Positions 13,235-25,160 of a DNA stretch of 64,000 bases are shown here, piece by piece. A program made the position numbers and the translations under genes. The notes beneath the pieces were generated by a model, which saw only the letters and a program-made list of their open reading frames with translations, did not search any database and had not been told where the DNA came from. The stretch's first letter is position 1. Every line of letters starts with the position of its first letter. The DNA comes from Candidatus Moanabacter tarae (lineage in GTDB: Bacteria > Verrucomicrobiota > Verrucomicrobiia > Opitutales > UBA2987), in NCBI GenBank assembly GCA_003226295.1, contig CP029803.1:1234211-1298210 (forward strand), in the 5' to 3' direction.

Positions 13235-13951
13235 TCACATCCCGCGTTTCACGAAAGTAACTTCATCATCACTCTCCTTCAGTGTAATCTCCTTCTGCCT
13301 CTCAGTGCTCGCCCCAACGTAAGGAACTGCAGCCGCTGCCATCAATGGAAGATACTTTCGGAGGTCGTCGCTCTCGTCCTTGTTGTTAACATAGATGCTC
13401 CACACTTGAGCAGGTGCTTCGCTGTCATCGACGTTCTGATTGTCTCGAGCCGTCAGTCTCAGGTATTTCTCATAGGTAGTGACGGGAACCATCTTCTCTT
13501 CAAAATCCACCACTTGCTTGCGAGGCGGATCATAGACAGTAACACTCCTGTAGCCAATAATACTGCCTTTATTGTCAAATATCGGAATCGATACCAGCCT
13601 AGGCCCCCCAGAACTCACCGCATAAATAGGCGTTGTATAGGTCTTATAATCGATCTGAGGATCTCCTACGCCGAAGGATATATCCACAATCATATCTGCA
13701 CTCTCTGTGTCAGGTGCCTCGTAGAGGCCTTGCGCAGATAGGGTCGTCTTTACGTAATCCGAAACTTCTTTGTACTGAAGATCATTCTCATCGAACTCGG
13801 CATTCGAACTAACCATTTTGAACGACCTGTACCCCTCAACATCAGGGTTATTTATCGCATCAACCTTAAATGTATAAGGGGAAGCACATCCTCCATACAG
13901 GAGCGCGACAGCTGCGAACCCTAACAACCTTATAGATTTAGAACCCAACAT
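13235..13951 (-). CDS. DUF4136-like lipoprotein
   Basis: A 238-residue envelope protein. The N-terminus LLGFAAVALLYGGC, followed directly by Ala-Ser, reads as a lipoprotein signal with Cys at about residue 22, though Tyr at -3 is atypical. The mature part has the YxxFxVDAINNPDVEGYRSFKM-like start and a later ADMIVDISFGVGDPQ strand, as in DUF4136 lipoproteins. It ends in a moderately charged tail. Function is not known for this family. It lies 86 bases downstream of a second lipoprotein gene on the same strand and could be in one operon with it. Confident of lipoprotein nature, less of family. Confidence 0.7.
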   Translation of the reverse strand: MLGSKSIRLLGFAAVALLYGGCASPYTFKVDAINNPDVEGYRSFKMVSSNAEFDENDLQYKEVSDYVKTTLSAQGLYEAPDTESADMIVDISFGVGDPQIDYKTYTTPIYAVSSGGPRLVSIPIFDNKGSIIGYRSVTVYDPPRKQVVDFEEKMVPVTTYEKYLRLTARDNQNVDDSEAPAQVWSIYVNNKDESDDLRKYLPLMAAAAVPYVGASTERQKEITLKESDDEVTFVKRGM

Positions 13952-14037: not shown

Positions 14038-14598
14038 TTAGTTTTCGCCTGCCGCTTCCTTCAGATGTTTCAATTGTTCTTCCAAACGTTTAATCTCCTC
14101 CTCATTTTCAAGCGCTTTTCGGTTCGCATCCTCTAGAGATTTCTGACGATTCCTCGCTGCCGCAATCTCATCCTTAAGTTTCTTCAATTCGATCTCAGTT
14201 TGCTCCTTACGAATCTCTGCTTCTTCAATTTCCTGATTAGTAATCCTCAGACCCTCAGCAATTACTAATTCCTCTTCTAGTCTAGCGCGCTCGCGAGCCT
14301 CAACCTCACGCATCTTAGCCAATTCTTGCTGGTGGGCACGCTCCTGAGCAATCTCATCCTGCTGCTTACGTTCCTTGGCGTCTTTCACAGCACCATAGAT
14401 ACCTCCTATGAGCATGCCTGTTCCCGCACCAATAGCAGCACCCTCGACCGTCTGCCCACTTTGACTGCCAATTATAGCACCTGCCACTGCTCCTCCAACT
14501 CCTCCCTTTTTCACTCCTTGAGTTGTGTTGGAGGTGGTCTGACATCCGATCTGAAGAAAAATTGAGAAAATCAGGATGTAGGCCACAATATTATTCAT
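14038..14598 (-). CDS. Glycine-zipper, coiled-coil lipoprotein
   Basis: About 186 residues from ATG 14598; a longer frame upstream lacks support because the signal peptide begins at this ATG. MNNIVAYILIFSIFLQIGC is a lipoprotein signal with lipidated Cys19. Next come two glycine-zipper repeats (GGVGGAVAGAIIGSQSG and EGAAIGAGTGMLIGGIYG), as in 17-kDa/SlyB-type outer-membrane lipoproteins. The rest is a long, highly charged helix rich in Glu, Lys, Ala and Arg that should form a coiled coil. The architecture suggests a membrane-associated structural protein. It is divergent from the TolQ-like operon, with a 332-base spacer, so it may share control with that locus. No exact family name can be given. 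Confidence 0.75.
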   Translation of the reverse strand: MNNIVAYILIFSIFLQIGCQTTSNTTQGVKKGGVGGAVAGAIIGSQSGQTVEGAAIGAGTGMLIGGIYGAVKDAKERKQQDEIAQERAHQQELAKMREVEARERARLEEELVIAEGLRITNQEIEEAEIRKEQTEIELKKLKDEIAAARNRQKSLEDANRKALENEEEIKRLEEQLKHLKEAAGEN

Positions 14599-14930: not shown

Positions 14931-15836
14931 TTGTTAGAGGGGAAAACTATACAGAGCATGACGGGAAGAAATAGCCAGCACAGTTTTTTCTCAAACGAGA
15001 TGGTCATTAAATACGGTGGCTTGATTTTTGCCATAGTCTTCGTCGGCCTACTGTATTCATTAATCATTCGCCCACAGGCGGAAAAGGTTGAGAGAAACAA
15101 TCGGGTGCTACTAGCTCAAGATGCTGGCAAAGGTGAGTTTGTTCCGGCCCGAAGCATCTCTATAATAATAAAGAATCCGGAACAGCAGATCTGCTTCACC
15201 CTTCTAGTCTGGGCCGTGATTATGGTTAGTGGAAAAACAATAACAATCCACAGAATCAGAAAAAACATGGGAGAGGTTTTCATCGAAGTTGAAGATGGAG
15301 AACGGATCATTCCGGAAGAAGCTCTCAGCCATGCAAAACACCTCGATTCACGACTCCAAGATGACCCTGATCTAAAAGAACAGATCCTTCCTAAAATCTT
15401 CCTCACATCTCTGCGTCGTTTCCATTCGACACATTCAATTCAAGAAGTCTCTCAATCAGTTCGGGAGATCTCCGACTCTGAAGCTGAACGAATGGATTCA
15501 GATCTTTCTCTTCCCCGACTGATCATCGGATTCCTCCCGATGGTTGGATTCATTGGAACTGTACGCGGAATCGCTCAGGCCCTAACCAACGCAGAAAAGG
15601 CTATCCGGGGTGATATCCAAGGAGTTACAGAGAATCTTGGCCTCGCCTTTAATTCAACCTTCGTGGCCTTGATTTTAAGCATAGTTCTGATGGTCTACGT
15701 TCACTACTTACAAACCCGTCAGGAAAATCTCATCTTCGAAGTACAGGAATATTGTCGAGACAAACTTGTCGCGTTGATGAAAATCCCATTTAAAGAAGAA
15801 GGTGAGATCTCCATGACTCAGAACTCAAGTAACTAA
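14931..15836 (+). CDS. MotA/TolQ/ExbB-family proton channel protein
   Basis: An inner-membrane protein of about 300 residues. Hydrophobic segments lie at about 27-46, 84-100, 200-225 and 240-263. The last pair holds the family signature: LPRLIIGFLPMVGFIGTVRGI, then a short loop, and LGLAFNSTFVALILSIVLMV, with the Pro, Gly-Thr-Val and Thr positions typical of TolQ/ExbB. Such subunits form a pentameric proton channel that powers work in the envelope through partner proteins with one transmembrane Asp. Here the partners are probably the two vWA proteins encoded downstream, which have TolR-like N-termini. TTG 14931 is the listed start; ATG 14958 or 15000 are alternatives. It is the first gene of a four-gene operon, with 12 bases to the next gene. 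It is not flagellar MotA: no MotB lies nearby. Confidence 0.9.
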   Translation: MLEGKTIQSMTGRNSQHSFFSNEMVIKYGGLIFAIVFVGLLYSLIIRPQAEKVERNNRVLLAQDAGKGEFVPARSISIIIKNPEQQICFTLLVWAVIMVSGKTITIHRIRKNMGEVFIEVEDGERIIPEEALSHAKHLDSRLQDDPDLKEQILPKIFLTSLRRFHSTHSIQEVSQSVREISDSEAERMDSDLSLPRLIIGFLPMVGFIGTVRGIAQALTNAEKAIRGDIQGVTENLGLAFNSTFVALILSIVLMVYVHYLQTRQENLIFEVQEYCRDKLVALMKIPFKEEGEISMTQNSSN

Positions 15837-15848
15837 GTTAGAATTTCT

Positions 15849-17375
15849 GTGAGGATAATCGGATTAGAAATCTGTGACGAGGGCATTCTAGCGGCCGAAA
15901 ACAAAGACCGAGAAGTTCGGATTTTTCCTTTGGAAAGCGAAGGCCTCTCAAGCCCTGGACATGTCTTCTTTGACGGATCCGAATTTAAAACTGGGAGGGA
16001 AGCAGAATTCTTGCAAAGGATCTATCCCCGATATGTTTCCGACCGGTGTTGGGATCAATTGTCATTGCGTCCTTCTGAGCTTAACACTCCAGGAAATCCG
16101 CCACCCTATTCGGAACTCGCTTTTCGGCACATCCATTTCATCTGGAAGAAACTTCAAATGGGAGGACAGATTGACCGTTTAATAATCATTCTTCCAGGGA
16201 AGTATCTCAGTGGAAGATACGGGGATGAGGAAAAAATCGGTCTTATCCTTGGCATGGCACAAGATCTTGGGATGCCGCTAGTCGAACTGGTTGACCTAGG
16301 CGTTTTTTCTGCTGCCGCCGGAGCTTCTTCAGTAGGGGCTGGACCCTCGTTCGCGCTGCATGTCGATGTTCATCTTCACTCAACCTTTGTCACCGTTATC
16401 CGAACAGGCCAGGTCTTTTCTAGAGTCAGTCTACATCGCTCGAGGGTTGGCTATGCTCAAGTCTATTCCGAGCTCTTTCCTAAGCTTGCAAACCGATTTC
16501 TAAGCCAGACAGCTTACGACGTAACCCACAACGCAAAAACGGAACAGGTCTTTTTCGCCCACATGAAGAATGCTTTGGAAGAACTGACCGAACAAGAAGA
16601 GGTCTCAATAGAGATGAATGGGGTCAGGCGTATTCGAAAAATGGTCGTTACCCAGGAGGATATATACCACCATCTAAATGTTCTAAATGAATCTAACCTA
16701 AACTTTATAAAAAAAATCTATGATGAAGTTGCCACCTCGGAAAGAGAGAGTCCGAAACACATATTCATGACAGAACGGGCAATTCGTGTTAGTGGGTTAA
16801 AGGAAAAAATTGGCTCGTGGAAAGGTGATCAAATAGTTCTTCTACCCCGTGGGGCTGCTACCCTTACGGCGGTGCGTTACGGTTTAGAAAAAGAACTGGA
16901 AACGAGCTTGGAAGATACTCCCGTAACTAGTACCATCAACTTGAATGAAGTCGGTTTGTCCCCTACAGAACCATCTCCTATTCCAGACTGTAATTCGTCT
17001 GTATGGATAAATGATCAGCCCTCTGAAACTTCCACCGGTGATAGGAAATGTGAGGGTAATTATAAACCCTCACACATTGTTCTCAATGGTATTGGATATC
17101 GAATCCAGGGAGATGAGTTCATCATTGGAACTGATTTTCCAAAGAATGGGTTTGGTCTGATAATTCCGAATTCGATTCAGGGAATAGGACGGGAGCATTG
17201 CTCAATTTTAAGCGGAAATAACGAAAAGATACTCGTTCCCCAAAATGCCTATTCAACATTCCTTAACACTAAACCGTTACTGGAAAACGAAACTCTCAAG
17301 GCAGGCGATATTCTATCCTTAGGTAGCGGAGCAGAAAAAATTGAGCTCCACCTAATCTGCTGTCGCGAGGAATGA
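15849..17375 (+). CDS. Actin-fold (Hsp70-like) protein with C-terminal FHA domain
   Basis: A 508-residue cytosolic protein starting at GTG. The first about 350 residues look like a divergent actin/Hsp70 ATPase fold: IIGLEICDEGILAA resembles phosphate-1, LIIILPGKYLS plus VELVDLGVFSAAAG resembles the connector segment of DnaK, and ALHVDVHLHSTFVTVI resembles phosphate-2. Catalytic glycine-rich loops are weak, so ATP use is uncertain. A linker of about 50 residues follows. Residues about 405-505 read as an FHA phosphopeptide-binding domain: GDEFIIGTD, GIGREHCSIL, then NAYSTFLNTKPL and LKAGDILSLGSG. The stop overlaps the next start by ATGA, implying translational coupling with the vWA gene. Likely role: cytoplasmic regulator or assembly factor of the channel. 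This is inference; no known named family is recognised. Confidence 0.7.
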   Translation: MRIIGLEICDEGILAAENKDREVRIFPLESEGLSSPGHVFFDGSEFKTGREAEFLQRIYPRYVSDRCWDQLSLRPSELNTPGNPPPYSELAFRHIHFIWKKLQMGGQIDRLIIILPGKYLSGRYGDEEKIGLILGMAQDLGMPLVELVDLGVFSAAAGASSVGAGPSFALHVDVHLHSTFVTVIRTGQVFSRVSLHRSRVGYAQVYSELFPKLANRFLSQTAYDVTHNAKTEQVFFAHMKNALEELTEQEEVSIEMNGVRRIRKMVVTQEDIYHHLNVLNESNLNFIKKIYDEVATSERESPKHIFMTERAIRVSGLKEKIGSWKGDQIVLLPRGAATLTAVRYGLEKELETSLEDTPVTSTINLNEVGLSPTEPSPIPDCNSSVWINDQPSETSTGDRKCEGNYKPSHIVLNGIGYRIQGDEFIIGTDFPKNGFGLIIPNSIQGIGREHCSILSGNNEKILVPQNAYSTFLNTKPLLENETLKAGDILSLGSGAEKIELHLICCREE

Positions 17376-18433
17376 AAAAAAACCGCGGAGTTACGAGTTT
17401 TAGTATCTCATTTCTCGACTGTATCAGTTGTGGGTTCGGCGCAATTATTCTTCTTTTTGTCCTGACCAGCGGAAAAAAAGTCGAAGATAGTAATCAGCAG
17501 CTCTCAGACAAAGAAGTGGATCTAGGTGCCCTTCGTCGAAATATCCAGGATGAAGAACAGGACCTCCTGCGACTCTCTGTAGATATCGAAGAGATCCGTA
17601 AACGCGTCAAGATTCTCGAAACCGATGAAATTGAAATTGAAACGAAAATTGAGGATAAGACACTGGAGCTGAGGCTGCTCCTGGAGCAATTAGCAGAGAT
17701 GGAGGAATTACGCGATAACCTCCTCGCAAGACTTGAGAAATTACCGACTGTAGAAGAAGCAGTTCCAATCCCAGTACCAAACCCAGTTCGGCGACAATAC
17801 CTTACCGAGTTTAAACTCGATGGGGAACGTGTGATCTTTCTGATTGAATCCTCGGGCGGAATGCTCGATGCAAACGTTGAATTGGCGATCGAGCGTTCCA
17901 CCGGCACCAAAGAAGAGAAGCGTTCAGCACCCAAGTGGAAAAGGACCATGCGAGCTGTGGAATGGCTTTTTACGTCTCTCAAACCGCCTAGCCGATACCA
18001 AATTTACTTCTTTGGAAAAGAGACTGAATCCATTTATCCGACTCGCGCCTTTGATTGGATGGACATGAGCGACCGAAAACAAACCGCCGAAACTCTTAAA
18101 CGGCTCAGAGAGAAAACACCACAAGGTCCGGCTAACCTCGAGAAAGCGTTCTATGTAATTGGGAATCTGGATCCACTTCCGGATAACATTATTCTATTAG
18201 TGGATGGCTTACCGACCCAAGGGGAATCAGTCAAAGCAGGGCATGTCGTCGATACTCAGACACGTATTCGAATGTTCAACGCTGCTAAACGTGCAATGCC
18301 ACGCGGAGTCCCACTCAACATTATTCTCTTGCCCTGGTCCGGCGACCCAGAAGCTGCTTCAATGTACTGGCTCATGGCTACCGAGACTGATGGCTCCTTC
18401 ATCTGTCCTGCAAGGGATTGGCCAACGATATGA
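17372..18433 (+). CDS. TolR-like membrane-anchored vWA protein 1 (degenerate MIDAS)
   Basis: 353 residues. A short basic cytoplasmic tail is followed by one transmembrane helix, FLDCISCGFGAIILLFVL, with Asp16 at its start, as the proton-carrying Asp in TolR/ExbD. Next is a coiled coil (about 40-130) rich in Glu, Leu and Arg, a proline-rich hinge (VPIPVPNPV), and a vWA domain from about 150. Its metal-site motif reads IESSGGM (residues 158-164) instead of DxSxS, so metal binding is probably lost. The strand NIILLVDGLPTQG matches the later vWA motif. The domain should sit in the periplasm. The start overlaps the previous stop (ATGA) and the next gene starts inside its stop (ATGA). It is a paralogue of the next gene. 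Function is inferred from architecture. Confidence 0.8.
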   Translation: MKKNRGVTSFSISFLDCISCGFGAIILLFVLTSGKKVEDSNQQLSDKEVDLGALRRNIQDEEQDLLRLSVDIEEIRKRVKILETDEIEIETKIEDKTLELRLLLEQLAEMEELRDNLLARLEKLPTVEEAVPIPVPNPVRRQYLTEFKLDGERVIFLIESSGGMLDANVELAIERSTGTKEEKRSAPKWKRTMRAVEWLFTSLKPPSRYQIYFFGKETESIYPTRAFDWMDMSDRKQTAETLKRLREKTPQGPANLEKAFYVIGNLDPLPDNIILLVDGLPTQGESVKAGHVVDTQTRIRMFNAAKRAMPRGVPLNIILLPWSGDPEAASMYWLMATETDGSFICPARDWPTI

Positions 18434-19434
18434 ATAATCGGAAACCAAGGAGAGAACGCTCGGATTTTAGCCTTTCCTTTCTCGACTGCATCAGCTGTGG
18501 ATTCGGTGCTGTGATCCTCCTCTTCGTTATTTCCTTAGGATCAGAACGCCTAGTCATCATCGACATCCGCCAAACGCTGGAGAAGCTCTACCAAGAACGT
18601 TTAAAGGAACTAGACGATATCAGGGACAAAAACAAGGAAGTCATCAATCTGATTCAACAGGAGACACAAGAGGAAAAGGACAAAATACAAAAAGTAGATT
18701 CAATGCAGACTACTCTCGAGAAGATCATTGATAGAATCAAGAAAACCGAATTCGGTAATGAGAAGCTTGTCGTTAACTTGGACAACATTCACGAGATAGT
18801 CGATGCCAGGGAGAAGGAAATCGATATCCCTCAAAATACAGCAGAGCTACCCATTGGAGTACCAGTGGCAAATAATCACCTTGTTTTCATATTGGACACC
18901 TCAGGAAGTATGAGAGATCCCGGCACGGGCAAAATATGGGAGTCCATCGTGACTAAGTTTGAAGAGACTCTCAAAGTCTATCCAATCGTCGATGCCATTC
19001 AAGTCATGGATGCTGATGGCAATTTCATGATTCGTACTAGCCGTGGGCAATGGCTTCCCGACAGCTCCGGAAGCCGTGCAGGTATAATGAGGGCCATTCG
19101 AAACTACGACCATCACAGTCAAAGTAATCCGGTCCCTGGGATCATCCGTGCTATCCGATTCTCCAAAGAAAAAGATGAAATGGACTCAAATAAAAAGGTT
19201 GGAATCTATATTTTTGGGGACGAATTCACTCAGACCGCTGAAAAGGTTCTCCATCGCATTGAGCAACTTAACCCGGCCGACGAAGAAGGCAACAGACCTG
19301 TGACCATCAACGCGGTGGGATTTCCCCAAGTTATAAAATATGAGAGACACTTTACCCGAACCGGTTTGAAATTCGCCAACCTAATGCGCGAACTAACATA
19401 TATCCACGGCGGGGCGTTTATCGGTACAAATTAA
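18430..19434 (+). CDS. TolR-like membrane-anchored vWA protein 2 (intact MIDAS)
   Basis: 334 residues from ATG 18430, which overlaps the previous stop as ATGA; a TTG at 18418 would only add four residues and is less likely. The plan is the same as its neighbour: basic tail, transmembrane helix FLDCISCGFGAVILLFVI with Asp19, a long charged coiled coil (about 45-130), then a periplasmic vWA domain. Here the metal-site motif is canonical, ILDTSGSM (Asp156, Ser158, Ser160), with IYIFGDEFT later in the fold, so it should bind a divalent metal and a ligand or partner. The two paralogues share the FLDCISCGFGA sequence almost exactly, but their vWA parts are strongly diverged. It closes the TolQ-like operon and faces a convergent operon across 134 bases. 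Confidence 0.83.
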   Translation: MNNRKPRRERSDFSLSFLDCISCGFGAVILLFVISLGSERLVIIDIRQTLEKLYQERLKELDDIRDKNKEVINLIQQETQEEKDKIQKVDSMQTTLEKIIDRIKKTEFGNEKLVVNLDNIHEIVDAREKEIDIPQNTAELPIGVPVANNHLVFILDTSGSMRDPGTGKIWESIVTKFEETLKVYPIVDAIQVMDADGNFMIRTSRGQWLPDSSGSRAGIMRAIRNYDHHSQSNPVPGIIRAIRFSKEKDEMDSNKKVGIYIFGDEFTQTAEKVLHRIEQLNPADEEGNRPVTINAVGFPQVIKYERHFTRTGLKFANLMRELTYIHGGAFIGTN

Positions 19435-19568
19435 TTTGGAAGAAAGTTTTTTTCGTCTTTGTCTTTATCTATTTTCTGGCCCACTGAAACCTGAGTTTCA
19501 ACGGCAGATAGGAACCAGGATTTTGGACTAGAAAAAGATCCACATGGAAGAGGAGTCTTTCTAAAAGG

Positions 19569-20471
19569 TTACCTTCCAAAGATAGACCGTAGCATTTCCC
19601 ACCAATTCAGATTTCGACTAGAAGGTTGTCCGGCCGATGGTATAGAAGGACTTCCACTCGAACTGTTACTGGAACTACTTGAACCACTGGAAGATTGGGG
19701 GCTGCGCTGCCCAAACTGGACACTTGGTCGACCCGGTTGTACCGCTTTCGACTGCTGCTCTAGTTTCGTTGTCTCGGTTCCCTGTTCCCTGCCTTGCCTA
19801 CCCTGACCTTCCCCCATCCGCATCATTTCCTCAGTCTTCTTCCCAAACAATTCCGAAGTGTTTCCCCCCTGCTCAAAAACAATGACCTCCTTGCCGCTTC
19901 CACCAATCGCATTACCTTTATTATTCCCATTCGCCTGGTCTGCGGTTCCTAGCTGATCAAGATTCCCCCGCTGCTTAAGCGTTCCTTTCTCTGTACCCTT
20001 CTGGTCCATCTGTGCTTGCGCAGAATTACTCGTTGTAACTTCGACCGGGGTCCCATTTCTATCCTGCCGTCTTTTTTTCATCTCGGATTGGACTACCTTT
20101 AGCATCTCGTGATCAAAATGATAGATTTCCAGCTCACTCTTTTGCAGTGTTAAACGAACCGCAGTTACACTTTCAACGATTGCGGCGAGTTTATCTTTCC
20201 ATAACACCGCCTCCAAATAGATATCAACAGGACCGAAATAGTAATTAAGATTTTCGTGTGAATATTTTACGTAGTAACCTTCTTCATCCGGTATGTATCC
20301 TGAGATATCAATTCCAGGATGAGCACTCTCGAATTCCTCCGCGCTCATTGTAGCCGAATCCTCGATGGCCTCAACGGGTAGGATAATCGACTTTGCGGAC
20401 GATATCGCCGGGACCATGGCGCTTAGAATGAGGCTGGCAATGATCAGGATACGATTACTTGCGTTTCGCAT
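19569..20471 (-). CDS. Exported Gln/Ser-rich protein of unknown function
   Basis: I do not recognise a family. About 300 residues from ATG 20471, chosen because the signal peptide MRNASNRILIIASLILSAM starts there, with likely cleavage after SSA. The next 130 residues look folded, with YYVKYSHENLNYYFGPVDIYLEA in the middle. From about 150 it becomes low complexity: Gln, Gly, Lys and Asn rich, then a Ser run (about 265-285), ending in an aromatic tail NLNWWEMLRSIFGR. It is the last gene of the minus-strand operon, 16 bases after its neighbour. Together with that neighbour it is probably a periplasmic or surface partner of the TolQ/vWA proteins. Confidence 0.65.
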   Translation of the reverse strand: MRNASNRILIIASLILSAMVPAISSAKSIILPVEAIEDSATMSAEEFESAHPGIDISGYIPDEEGYYVKYSHENLNYYFGPVDIYLEAVLWKDKLAAIVESVTAVRLTLQKSELEIYHFDHEMLKVVQSEMKKRRQDRNGTPVEVTTSNSAQAQMDQKGTEKGTLKQRGNLDQLGTADQANGNNKGNAIGGSGKEVIVFEQGGNTSELFGKKTEEMMRMGEGQGRQGREQGTETTKLEQQSKAVQPGRPSVQFGQRSPQSSSGSSSSSNSSSGSPSIPSAGQPSSRNLNWWEMLRSIFGR

Positions 20472-20487
20472 ATGATACCTTTCAAAC

Positions 20488-21195
20488 TTACAGATCAGTT
20501 GGAATAGATTGTCCCGTCTCAACCCCAATCGACCGTCCCTTGTTCTTGCCACGCATCTCGGGACCCTTTCCGTCCAGCATTTCTTTGTCTCCTAGACCCA
20601 TACCTTCGGAATCTTCGTTCGTATTTTCTCGAGCCTTCGAATTTTGAGCAACCTCAATCATTTCTTCTTCGGATCCAAACATTACGCTTTTAGCACCATG
20701 AAATTTATTTATCTGACCAGGACTCTCCGGATTTTCCTGACCAGCCGAAACTACATCCCCTTCACTATTGGCCAATTTCTCACTTTTTCGATCAAGTTCT
20801 GCCAATTTTTCCCCAATTACTTTTACCTGAACACTAGGATTTATTGCATCTCCTTCCGAACCCATTGAAATGGAAACAGGTTTCCCGTCTTCCTCGTCAA
20901 CATCAGCCTCCGAAATTACACCTCCCATACCTTTACCATCCTGTCGCACGTAAATACCGTTCTGCCCTTCAGAGGACATACCTCCTCGTTCTGGCCTTCC
21001 AGCACTGGAGGAATTTATTCTTATCAACTCCAAGACCTTTTTAATAGCGTAGTGTTTTGAAATTTCCTCCCCATATTTGGTGCCGTCAAATATTTCAGGA
21101 TCTGGCGCAGCATTGGTTTCCTTGGTTACTACTATAACAAGCAAACCAGAGACAAGAACCGGAACAACATAGAGCAATCTATTTATGTATTTCAT
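20488..21195 (-). CDS. Exported low-complexity acidic protein of unknown function
   Basis: No family is recognised. 235 residues beginning MKYINRLLYVVPVLVSGLLV, a signal peptide or N-anchor with possible cleavage after TNAA. The first 60 mature residues look ordered (EEISKHYAIKKVLELIRIN). The rest is rich in Gly, Glu, Ser and Asp. A segment MFGSEEEMIEVAQ recalls LFGKKTEEMMRMG in the following gene product, so the two may be distant paralogues. The gene sits between the TPR/PEGA-like gene (37 bases upstream) and the Gln-rich exported gene (16 bases downstream) and is probably co-transcribed with both. Confidence 0.65.
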   Translation of the reverse strand: MKYINRLLYVVPVLVSGLLVIVVTKETNAAPDPEIFDGTKYGEEISKHYAIKKVLELIRINSSSAGRPERGGMSSEGQNGIYVRQDGKGMGGVISEADVDEEDGKPVSISMGSEGDAINPSVQVKVIGEKLAELDRKSEKLANSEGDVVSAGQENPESPGQINKFHGAKSVMFGSEEEMIEVAQNSKARENTNEDSEGMGLGDKEMLDGKGPEMRGKNKGRSIGVETGQSIPTDL

Positions 21196-21232
21196 TTCTT
21201 AAGGTCTCCCCTGTCTCGAATTCGATGATGAG

Positions 21233-22930
21233 TCAGGATCGCTGAAAACAAATAACCTTTACGAGGCCAAAATCACGGCCGCTGCGCACTCTGATTTCTA
21301 ATAGAATATCACGATATCCTTTTCGTCTACCTCGTACTTTATAATTCCCAGGATAGATACGAGCAGTTTTTTGTTCAAATCTTCCCAGCATCTCAAAGCC
21401 AGCAATGCTAACCCAAGTCTTTCCGTCGGATACGAAATTAACCGGCACTGGTTTCGATTGTTCCCGCAACATGTTTTGCAGATTTAAGCTCGCCTCCTCA
21501 AGGGGGAGATAGGAGGGTTTAATAGACATTCCTTCATTAAAGACCCGAATAGATTTTTGAAATTCTCCCTGATTCGCCAATTCCTGTGCCTGTTCGAGAA
21601 GTTGGTTATAGCGAAGGAGAACTCGGACCAAATTACCTGTCCGAAGGAGACCATCTGTCGCCTCTTTATTCCCCCTGTCTAATTCAAGCACTTCGATAAA
21701 AGAGTCCCTTGCCGCAATCCATTCGTAATCGTTCTCGAAGGCCAATGCCCGACTTCGAGCATCTTTCACTTTTGCCAATCGCGCCACTTCTCTGACTCTC
21801 GCAAGATCTTCGGCAAACCCCTCCTTATCAGGGAACATCTTGGTGGCTGCTTCCAAGGTCGTGATTGCTGCGTCCCAGTCCTCCTTCTCCTCTGCAGCTT
21901 TTGCTGCCGAAACAAAATTATCGAAATTGTTTTTCTCAATATTTCTCCTGACTCTGGTAACCCCTTGTTGGGCTCTAGCCGACCGTGTATCGATCTTAAA
22001 AGCCTTTTCATAAGTTATGAGGGCTCCTTCCAAATCACCGTCATTTTCCTGTTTTTTAGCCTTTTTTAGTAATGACACTAATATGTCGATATTTAGGGCT
22101 CGCTCTAGATTGCGCTTGGCTAATTCATTGTCTGGCTGAAGTGTGAGGATCTCTGAGAAAATCTGTTTTGAAATAGCTTTCTCCCCTTTGGAAAAAGCTA
22201 TCTTTCCCTCGATTTCCTTTTCCGCGATGAAAAGTTCGGCTGCAATCTCAACCTCCTTCAATTCAGTCATTGCTTGCTCAAAATCAGAAATTGAAGCTAT
22301 AAATTCACCGTTTTCGAATCGCCCGGTTCCCTCGTTACCATACGCTACCGCCTTTTCATATTCATAAGGAGCATGAATTCTCATTCCTTCATCCTTTTCA
22401 ACGGCAGCAAGGAATTCATCGTAGACCTCTTTGGCCTTCTCTTTTTCGGTGATAGTTTCCCTCATCTCTTCCACTAATTCCCTAACCTCCTCGAATTTAG
22501 CCAACGCCTCTCGGTAGGCAGTTGATGCCAGTTGTCGGTTACCTTCATCAAATGCGGTCTCAATTATAACTAAATTCTCAATCAACCGAGGATGGTCATC
22601 AGTGATTTTACGAATCTCAGATATCCCCAGTCGCACGGCTGCCCTCATTCTATCAACCCGTTCCCGGCTGACAAATTTTCCATTTTCATAACCGGGAGAG
22701 CTACTCGGCCCAACCACTGGGGTAATAACTTCCCCTCCCAATCCAAGATACTTTCGAGCACCGTAAATGCCCGCCAAAGAAAGAATTAGAAGAAGCACAA
22801 CCGCAATACCGAAAACAAGGCTATTCCCCTGCTTCTTTGTCTGAGATTTATCTCGTCTCGAATCACCATCCGGATTCCAATGGATGATCTTCCGCCTCTT
22901 TGATCCCTCTGCCTTATTTCCCATACTCAT
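21233..22930 (-). CDS. Membrane-anchored TPR protein with PEGA-like C-terminus
   Basis: 565 residues. A basic cytoplasmic tail of about 36 residues (SKRRKIIHWNPDG) precedes one transmembrane helix (SLVFGIAVVLLLILSLAGIYG, about 37-57). The periplasmic part is helical and built of TPR-like repeats, for example AKKQENDGDLEGALITYEKA, AAEEKEDWDAAITTLEAA and AQELANQGEFQKSIRVFNEG. The last about 80 residues are beta-rich and end with ARIYPGNYKVRGRRKGYRDI, which resembles a PEGA domain. Such proteins scaffold complexes in the envelope. It is the first gene of the minus-strand operon converging on the TolQ/vWA operon. A tie to that machine is inferred from position and from matching single-helix topology. 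Confidence 0.8.
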   Translation of the reverse strand: MSMGNKAEGSKRRKIIHWNPDGDSRRDKSQTKKQGNSLVFGIAVVLLLILSLAGIYGARKYLGLGGEVITPVVGPSSSPGYENGKFVSRERVDRMRAAVRLGISEIRKITDDHPRLIENLVIIETAFDEGNRQLASTAYREALAKFEEVRELVEEMRETITEKEKAKEVYDEFLAAVEKDEGMRIHAPYEYEKAVAYGNEGTGRFENGEFIASISDFEQAMTELKEVEIAAELFIAEKEIEGKIAFSKGEKAISKQIFSEILTLQPDNELAKRNLERALNIDILVSLLKKAKKQENDGDLEGALITYEKAFKIDTRSARAQQGVTRVRRNIEKNNFDNFVSAAKAAEEKEDWDAAITTLEAATKMFPDKEGFAEDLARVREVARLAKVKDARSRALAFENDYEWIAARDSFIEVLELDRGNKEATDGLLRTGNLVRVLLRYNQLLEQAQELANQGEFQKSIRVFNEGMSIKPSYLPLEEASLNLQNMLREQSKPVPVNFVSDGKTWVSIAGFEMLGRFEQKTARIYPGNYKVRGRRKGYRDILLEIRVRSGRDFGLVKVICFQRS

Positions 22931-23448
22931 ACTTAGCTCAGATTATATTGATAAGATTCCAACATGTTAGGGTATGCACTAGCCAATGATCCGGGAAACT
23001 TTGAATCTAGAAAGGAAAATGTAAATCCCGCAGAGGTGAACCAATGGGATAAAGTAATTCCTGGCATCCGTACGAACAACGGCCCAATAGGGTTATTGTA
23101 AATTGACCCATCACATTCAGTGTAATAGACCAGTTAGATCTGTTCAGAATTAACCGAAGAATTGAGATATTGACAGTTGATCCCAGTAGAATGTTCCTCT
23201 TGAATATCAACCTTAAAAAATTGCTCTATGCTAACAGTATCTTCACGCGATATTTTGTCTCACCTCAAAAATTACAAACCATAAAGACTAGCCATATAGA
23301 ACGTCTTTAGCAAGTTAGTTTAGACTCAGAGGTTTACGAGACGTCGCAATTTTAAATTGCTGAAATTCAGAGTCCTGAAAACTTCTAACCTTGTAAATAA
23401 TGGATCAAAACAGCATTATGTAATCTCTTGTATTCTGAAAGGGCAGTC
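22931..23448. other. Intergenic region between divergent operons
   Basis: About 518 AT-rich bases between the TPR gene and the DsbA-like gene. It should hold both promoters. An AAAGGG run at 23439-23444 sits 4 bases before the TTG chosen as start of the DsbA-like gene. I found no convincing coding frame, tRNA or stable hairpin. Confidence 0.5.
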
Positions 23449-24468
23449 TTGAAGCATTCATTTAAACTCATTCTCGCCTCCTCGTTATTACTAATATTGG
23501 CCGGGAAGACGGAGGCTGCTAACTCGATCCTCTACCGAGGTAAAGTAACAGTCGATGACAAACCATTCAACGGGAAAGGACGTTTCAAATTCGCTCTTCT
23601 TCTAGGAGAAACCCGGATCTTCTGGCAGAGTAATGTCACCACAGATTCTATCGAACCGTCAGAATCCTTATCTCTCCCGGTAAGAAATGGCCGCTACGAA
23701 GTATTTCTAGGTGATGTAGGGATGCCTCCACTTCCTAAATCCACTTCCGACCTTTTACATTCTCTCAAACTCAGAATCTGGTTTAGCGAAGGGTCAAAGA
23801 AATTCCGCGTCCTGTCTACAGATTATTCCTTAGCCGAAAAATCCATCAAGGAAAACTCAGATCTTTCAAAGCCCAAATCCGATGAAGGCCCCTTTGCAGG
23901 TTACAATTTTTTCGACAAGAGCAAGTACTCGCTTGGTAAGATTGATGCCCCCTTAATAATGGTTGAGTTCTCCGACTATCAATGTGGTCATTGCAGTCTC
24001 TTCCATGAAATCACCTACAACAAGATTATTAGCACTTACGTCGAAACTGGCAAAATGCGATTCATCGTCGAGAACTTTCCAATACGGAACCACTCCCACT
24101 CCCAGAAGGCGGCAGAGGCCTCATACTGCGCCGGTGATCAGGGTCGCTACTGGGAGATGCGTGATCTTCTCTTTCGCCACAGCAACCGGCTCTCCTTAGG
24201 AAAAATTCGTGACCTCGCCATCCAGTTGGGTCTACATCCAGTAGATTTCAATGGCTGCCTCGAAAGCGGAAAATATGCTGAACAAGTCGAAGATGAGAAA
24301 TCCATGGGTACCAAGATTGGAGTCAAACAGACTCCATCATTTATCCTGGCCAAAGTTGTAGACGGAGAAATAAGTGGCAAACTCATTGCAGGAGGCACCC
24401 GATGGACAAATATTAAATCAGAAATAAACGCTTTTCTTGAAGAAGAAGGCCGAATACAAAATGAATAG
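23449..24468 (+). CDS. Beta-domain / DsbA-like thioredoxin fusion, exported
   Basis: About 339 residues. A signal peptide (KHSFKLILASSLLLILAG) begins at a TTG with a close AAAGGG; a farther TTG at 23428 is possible. Residues about 28-125 form a beta-rich domain (YRGKVTVDDKPFNGKGRFKF, then FWQSNVTT, LPVRNGRYEVFLGD, LRIWFSEG) of a type I recall from many exported Verrucomicrobiota and Planctomycetes proteins. Residues about 150-335 are a DsbA-family thioredoxin domain: LIMVEFSDYQCGHCSLFHE with the CGHC redox site, and KQTPSF with the cis-Pro. It should oxidise or isomerise disulfides in the periplasm. It overlaps the next gene by 8 bases and leads a three-gene redox operon. The fusion itself is unusual. 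Confidence 0.85.
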   Translation: MKHSFKLILASSLLLILAGKTEAANSILYRGKVTVDDKPFNGKGRFKFALLLGETRIFWQSNVTTDSIEPSESLSLPVRNGRYEVFLGDVGMPPLPKSTSDLLHSLKLRIWFSEGSKKFRVLSTDYSLAEKSIKENSDLSKPKSDEGPFAGYNFFDKSKYSLGKIDAPLIMVEFSDYQCGHCSLFHEITYNKIISTYVETGKMRFIVENFPIRNHSHSQKAAEASYCAGDQGRYWEMRDLLFRHSNRLSLGKIRDLAIQLGLHPVDFNGCLESGKYAEQVEDEKSMGTKIGVKQTPSFILAKVVDGEISGKLIAGGTRWTNIKSEINAFLEEEGRIQNE

Positions 24469-24721
24469 GGCAAATCAAGTTTTGAGACTTTTAAAACGTG
24501 CCATAGGTATCCTATTAATGGCGACTGTTATCGGTCTCACATCTAACGCTCTCAATCCAAACGGTATACCATTGATCAAATCATCGGTCACAGTCTCCAA
24601 ACCTGGGGCCTCTTCTCCCCTCATCACAAAACAGTCACCCGCCAGCCAAGAGGAATTCGAAAACGAAACCCTTCATATAAAATTCATCTCGGATTCAAAT
24701 GAAGGAGACTCACAGGACTAA
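24461..24721 (+). CDS. Small single-pass membrane protein in redox operon
   Basis: 86 residues from ATG 24461, which overlaps the end of the DsbA-like gene; an upstream ATG at 24437 in the same frame is less likely. A basic start is followed by one hydrophobic helix (AIGILLMATVIGLTSNAL), then an exported polar tail of about 60 residues without cysteine. The segment SNALNPNGIPLI resembles, from memory, the N-terminal stalk of membrane-anchored rhodanese proteins that often sit beside MauE-like genes, but no rhodanese domain follows. It overlaps the next gene by 23 bases, which supports a real translated gene. Function unknown. Confidence 0.6.
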   Translation: MNRANQVLRLLKRAIGILLMATVIGLTSNALNPNGIPLIKSSVTVSKPGASSPLITKQSPASQEEFENETLHIKFISDSNEGDSQD

Positions 24722-25160
24722 ACTGGTTCAAATCACCAGAATTCTGATTGGTTGTTTGATGCTTTGGGCCGGGCTTGCCAAAACAGCTAATTTACAGGAT
24801 TTTCTCGTATCGATTTACGGATACGAATTGCCTTTACCCGAACTAACCTTACGTCTTGCCGCAATCATTCTTCCTTGGCTAGAGATTCTTTGTGGCATTG
24901 CCTTAATCATCGGTATTTGGCAACAGGAATTCCTTAGTCTGCTCTCTCTCATTGGGCTAATATTTATCCTTATTACAGGCCAAGCATGGGTAAGGGGTCT
25001 CGATATTTCCTGTGGGTGTTTTGGAACGAACCTCGAAAAAGATACCTTCTTAGGTTCCGTCTCCTTCGCTTTCTTCCGTAACCTAGTCTTTTTTGGTATC
25101 GTCTTCTACCTATGGTTTCGCTCAATCACGCAAAAAAAAGACAAACCTGTCTTCTCATAG
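24699..25160 (+). CDS. MauE/DoxX-family redox-associated membrane protein
   Basis: 153 residues with four hydrophobic helices at about 10-25, 47-70, 77-95 and 125-145. The pattern LIGCLMLWAGLAKTANLQDF and the motif ISCGCFG are typical of MauE-like membrane proteins, in which the cysteines take part in passing electrons to periplasmic thiol proteins. It follows a DsbA-like gene, so the natural reading is that it helps recycle or reoxidise that protein. Start ATG 24699 lies inside the preceding gene, suggesting translational coupling. Role inferred from family and context. Confidence 0.8.
   Translation: MKETHRTKLVQITRILIGCLMLWAGLAKTANLQDFLVSIYGYELPLPELTLRLAAIILPWLEILCGIALIIGIWQQEFLSLLSLIGLIFILITGQAWVRGLDISCGCFGTNLEKDTFLGSVSFAFFRNLVFFGIVFYLWFRSITQKKDKPVFS

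Follow-up and report, generated by a model that had tools for sequence, protein, structure and literature searches.

The locus lies in a 64,000-nt window of the genome of Candidatus Moanabacter tarae (CP029803.1), and all coordinates given here are positions in this window. Four plus-strand genes, encoding a TolQ-like channel, an Hsp70-like actin-fold/FHA protein and two vWA proteins (vWA1 and vWA2), face three minus-strand genes, which we named m1, m2 and m3. The first-pass annotation had described this arrangement as a convergent two-operon locus, and all seven open reading frames were confirmed where it had placed them. The GTG start that it had assigned to the actin-fold/FHA gene (15849-17375) was also confirmed, as was the ATGA coupling of the last three plus-strand genes, with overlaps at 17372-17375 and 18430-18433. 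Promoter and terminator scans gave sites no commoner than in shuffles. Divergent to the motor operon is a minus-strand gene for a glycine-zipper lipoprotein with a coiled coil (14038..14598; Gly-zipper_OmpA), followed on the same strand by a DUF4136-like lipoprotein gene (13235..13951; PF13590, E 1.7e-6, below gathering). On the other side, next to m1, inspection of the sequence revealed a thioredoxin-fold protein resembling DsbA and a membrane protein resembling DoxX/MauE (23428-25160), genes that were not seen by the locus in L010.

Conservation of the locus

When 84,980 species genomes were scanned, 341 vWA relatives were obtained. The best 80 loci belonged mostly to Opitutales (Opitutaceae, Pelagicoccus, Puniceicoccaceae), then to Kiritimatiellia and Deltaproteobacteria. 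The order TolQ-(Hsp70/FHA)-vWA1-vWA2 was kept not only in Opitutales but also in further families of its phylum and in Desulfobacterota. Moreover, the complete seven-gene order recurred in other Opitutales families at 25-50% protein identity, which is more than would be expected by chance. In G085, for example, a member of another family, the lipoproteins, TolQ, the actin-fold gene, vWA1 and vWA2 are followed by m3, m2 and m1 on the opposite strand.

The co-occurrence check suggested in the first-pass annotation was carried out, and it bore out the expected association: the vWA N-termini stood with TolQ-like genes, and TolQ and vWA1 were both present, in all 61 Opitutales loci that extended far enough upstream, while the actin-fold gene was found in 59 of them. 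Outside Opitutales a TolQ-like gene accompanied the vWA N-termini in 5 of 6 loci, the sixth being masked with N. A search of viral contigs and plasmids brought up no vWA2 relative, and nothing therefore points to a mobile or phage system. Outside Opitutales the vWA pair is seldom found, so that it is not a general envelope function. Weak A4 matches in other Verrucomicrobiota were mostly chance similarity of coiled coils.

The glycine-zipper lipoprotein adjoined the motor in 56 of 57 Opitutales loci and was also present in genomes without it. The DUF4136-like lipoprotein was found at 50 of the 57 loci, and in 14/32 motor genomes versus 19/191 others. Because both lipoproteins also occur without the motor, they were dropped as obligate parts.

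The TolQ-like channel and the vWA pair

The channel gene (14931..15836, plus strand) has a TTG start, with an alternative ATG at 14958. Its product matched MotA_ExbB (PF01618, E 2.3e-17) in Pfam and TolQ in a profile search of the PDB (E 0.002), and contains four hydrophobic segments, a correction to the first-pass annotation. Two ring threonines, Thr201 and Thr234 (numbered from ATG 14958), were invariant in 70/70 TolQ sequences, and alignment to E. coli TolQ placed both at pore residues of TolQ relatives. Of the seven PF01618 matches in the genome, only the window TolQ had no ExbD nearby; the five ExbD (PF02472) genes of the genome each adjoin another PF01618 locus, and none of the seven window proteins matched PF02472 in Pfam.

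The place of the missing ExbD appears to be taken by the two vWA proteins. The first, vWA1 (17372..18433, plus strand), consists of an N-in helix with a TolR-like Asp16 (codon 17417-17419), a coiled coil and a periplasmic vWA domain that has lost the MIDAS Asp (E159), while vWA2 (18430..19434, plus strand) carries Asp19 in its helix (codon 18484-18486), then a coiled coil and a vWA domain with an intact DxSxS MIDAS (D156, D264). Two vWA genes had been predicted at first pass; vWA2 was recognised directly (VWA_2, E 4.7e-5), and vWA1, although missed by Pfam, aligned with vWA2 in hhalign over 307 columns (probability 100, E 1.8e-39). The helix of both opens with SFLDCxxCGFGA. The Asp that had been pointed out in the only helix of each protein proved to be invariant (96/96 vWA1 and 98/98 vWA2), with the neighbouring Cys variable. 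Since the pattern used in the genome scan included this Asp, the loci found by HMM serve as the unbiased check, and in the strong loci among them both vWA proteins again had an invariant Asp. The helices (SFLDCICCGFGA..) carry no His, so that the SHLS/His motif of TolA/TonB-type helices is absent. With no PF02472 match in the helices, their homology to TolR rests on the residue pattern and the partner gene. The earlier proposal that vWA domains replace TolR is well supported, given that no ExbD lies by TolQ and that the Asp and the ring Thr are invariant. Profile searches of the PDB with vWA1 and vWA2 returned mostly coiled-coil matches and no useful relative.

In the tree, vWA1 and vWA2 each formed one side of a branch with 100/100 support, indicating that the pair is old and has been kept together; judged from their sequences, the two are an ancient paralogous pair. 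Their heads are not equivalent, as the MIDAS Asp is kept in vWA2 and lost in vWA1 of Opitutales, where it was replaced in 82 of 85 sequences (R 53, E 29) and kept in 3. In vWA1 of other lineages it was kept in 11/11. Residue 159 of the window vWA1, at 17846-17848, is the site of this lost Asp. Taken together, TolQ, vWA1 and vWA2 likely form the core of a motor.

Other loci with a TolQ-like gene were also noted. In L137, L138, L175 and L176, which are among the weak A4 matches, one or two helix proteins of ExbD type (PFLDILCALIGVLILI type) with no recognised vWA come after it, and these are possibly related two-partner motors. In L139 (6493-8359), judged from inspection of the sequence, an FHA-like protein of 121 aa stands between TolQ and a TolR-like helix protein, which again puts FHA beside a TolQ-type channel.

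The m1-m2-m3 module and the Hsp70-like/FHA gene

The largest of the facing genes, m1 (21233..22930, minus strand), encodes a short cytosolic tail with the motif IHWNP (25/25 sequences), one helix (residues 37-55), a periplasmic TPR region (Pfam, E 2e-8) and a PEGA-like C-terminus. The first-pass description of a single-helix TPR/PEGA protein thus stands for the helix and the TPR, while PEGA is weak in the window protein and was seen only in relatives. The two signal-peptide proteins that it had placed beside m1 are present. The product of m2 (20488..21195, minus strand) has a signal peptide or anchor, a PDPxxFDG-type motif at the mature N-terminus, low complexity and a conserved C-terminal P-x-x-L; that of m3 (19569..20471, minus strand) has a signal peptide, a conserved N-domain (about residues 27-120), a low-complexity tail and a C-terminal amphipathic segment. 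For m3 the start had to be corrected, and is most likely ATG 20471, with a signal peptide, instead of the upstream GTG 20552. The m3 domain was modelled by AlphaFold2 with a pLDDT of 90, and a fold search against the PDB gave no match with Z over 3.

Of the 55 Opitutales loci whose downstream sequence was long enough, 26 had convergent m1 and m3 next to the motor. In all 26, m2, which is hard to detect by HMM, lay between them, with a PDPxxxDG-type N-terminal motif and the C-terminal P-x-x-L. This partial adjacency would agree with a functional unit of TolQ-vWA1-vWA2 alone, next to which m1-m3 lie incidentally. We regard that explanation as very improbable in view of the distribution of m3. 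Strong matches to the vWA pair, or to part of it, were obtained in 32 of 223 Opitutales genomes, and the m3 domain was present in 32/32 of these, unlinked cases included, versus 4/191 others (Fisher p 1e-34 by genome); by genus the counts were 16/16 versus 2/67 (p 3e-15), although the genomes are related and both p-values therefore overstate independence. The lipoprotein pair, in the same test, lacks such a tight link. Where m3 was unlinked from the motor, m1 and m3 stood together elsewhere in an m1-m2-m3 operon of their own, and in the cases inspected an m2-like gene separated the two (L170, L171, L173; also L172 and L183).

Homologues of m1 also speak against incidental adjacency, because other lineages have them inside the motor operon. 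Thus m1 is upstream of TolQ on the same strand in Desulfobacterota and Kiritimatiellia, with a PEGA/FGE-sulfatase protein, and Pelagicoccus mobilis and Puniceicoccaceae K14 have a second, one-directional locus with a weaker m1 match. This tie to the motor in differing arrangements is the best evidence that m1 is a part of the machine. In these two organisms (L160, 9-20 kb; L161, 1-11.7 kb) the second motor locus is paralogous to the first and forms one co-directional operon of m1-like, PEGA/FGE, two exported proteins, TolQ, Hsp70-like, vWA1 and vWA2. That m1-m3 are functional partners of the motor is well supported by genomics.

The partnership could also be that of a transporter with its cargo: the motor would energise the export or surface placement of m2/m3, and perhaps of other low-complexity proteins. 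Such a secretion or assembly system would fit the signal peptides, low-complexity tails and conserved C-terminal motifs of m2 and m3, as well as the co-occurrence of m3 with the motor. However, we noted neither a secretin nor any other outer-membrane pore in the loci, and m3 has a conserved globular domain, is not a bare passenger and is single copy per genome. We consider this reading unlikely, and prefer m1-m3 as working parts.

The actin-fold gene (15849..17375, plus strand) encodes a domain resembling the Hsp70 NBD (residues 1-350), followed by a degenerate FHA domain (Pfam, E 3.5e-4, barely above the gathering score). Its AlphaFold2 model (pLDDT 89) matched the NBD of BiP/DnaK over residues 1-350 in a structure search (Z 34, rmsd 2.8, 340 aligned). 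An MreB/FtsA-type filament was dropped as a candidate, as the PDB matches shown were Hsp70 NBDs, and the protein is called Hsp70-like here, though it may have another actin fold. While the NBD fold is common to this protein and the Hsp70/DnaK chaperones, the DLGGGT motif and the glycine loops are not shared: the window protein has DVHLHS in place of DLGGGT, the glycine triad was found in 0/25 actin-fold sequences, and the glycine-rich phosphate loops are lacking. The replacement of these motifs makes ATP hydrolysis doubtful, and the protein is probably a pseudo-ATPase regulator. The gene is accessory: it was absent from 7 genomes (families f2 and f98) in which the TolQ-vWA genes and m3 are retained, and one Opitutales family keeps the motor and m1-m3 without it. 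The Hsp70-like/FHA gene is less tightly linked to the motor than m1-m3.

The m1 homologues at L086 (2509-4716) and L136 (1107-3296) bear an extra N-terminal domain, which in L086 matched a protein kinase under the Pfam cut-off (8.7e-6) and is similar in L136. Phospho-signalling is possible, to judge from a kinase-like m1 domain and an FHA domain in the same gene set. These two domains, together with the intact MIDAS of vWA2, would also suit a regulatory or sensory channel, in which TolQ-vWA would gate ion flow when the vWA heads sense envelope stress and would pass the signal on via the FHA/Hsp70-like protein. But some genomes lack this protein and still have the motor and m3, and the characterised TolQ/ExbB/MotA relatives act as motors. 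We therefore judge a sensory channel to be distinctly improbable and retain a motor.

Proposed machine and relation to known systems

So, the window probably encodes a proton-powered motor of the cell envelope with two sensor-like vWA proteins as its moving part. We hypothesized that the pore of a TolQ-like pentamer encloses two helices, one from vWA1 and one from vWA2, and that there protonation of the vWA Asp against the Thr ring would drive the movement of the pair. The periplasmic coiled coils and vWA heads would stand in for the periplasmic domain of TolR/ExbD, and m1, with its inner-membrane anchor and conserved cytosolic tail, would couple the motor to the exported, flexible m2/m3, through which it may reach the peptidoglycan or the outer membrane. 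A regulatory role in the cytosol would fall to the Hsp70-like/FHA protein, which some lineages lack. We infer the stoichiometry, the proton drive, rotation, the contact of m1-m3 with the motor and the envelope output. As a whole, we hold with fair confidence a PMF-driven, 5:2-type inner-membrane motor with the vWA pair in the TolQ pore, m1 coupling to m2/m3 and an Hsp70-like/FHA regulator. A more specific version, to which we give slightly less than an even chance, has TolQ, vWA1, vWA2, m1, m2 and m3 as the six parts of a single, hitherto undescribed machine that spans the envelope. Its vWA pair, asymmetric in that only one head binds metal, would be moved by proton flow and would pull on m2/m3 via m1, with the Hsp70-like/FHA protein as an optional cytosolic switch. 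Characterised TolQ/ExbB/MotA motors pass force via few known partner types, whereas the candidate described here would use an asymmetric vWA pair; it is conserved and is found in the cultured Pelagicoccus mobilis and Puniceicoccaceae K14.

Among known systems, Zorya was dropped: the channel weakly matched ZorA (E 5.5e-5), and PADLOC gave no ZorB, ZorC or ZorD match among the seven proteins. Tol-Pal (TolQRAB-Pal) shares TolQ homology and a likely envelope output with the window locus, but TolR/ExbD, TolA and TolB were not found there by Pfam, and the partners are unrelated. By composition, the nearest characterised analogue is the AglRQS-Glt gliding machine of Myxococcus (PMC3169522), which likewise combines a single TolQ homologue with two distinct TolR-type partners and also has TPR proteins and an FHA-linked component. 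On the other hand, AglQ/S are ExbD proteins (PF02472), while the window partners are vWA proteins without PF02472.

The closest published counterpart is a prediction. According to its main text, PMC12204202 (Mol Biol Evol 2025) reports 'TPH-vWA' proteins in Proteobacteria and Verrucomicrobia (Fig. 4c-d), whose pore helix resembles that of TolR and which are encoded as heterologous pairs by tolQ with no tolR/exbD. For this same architecture its AlphaFold3 models locate the Asp inside the TolQ pore, and the account names no function. Compared by this description, the window agrees in TolQ, in the heterologous helix-anchored vWA pair, in the conserved Asp, in the lack of tolR/exbD and in helices devoid of the SHLS/His motor-binding motif. 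The central idea of the first-pass annotation is thus already published as a prediction. The main text makes no mention of the Hsp70-like/FHA gene, of m1-m2-m3 or of the MIDAS loss in vWA1, and the company of m1-m2-m3 with the motor in Opitutales appears to be undescribed before. With these three named partner proteins, the phenotype-less prediction of 2025 becomes a defined gene set.
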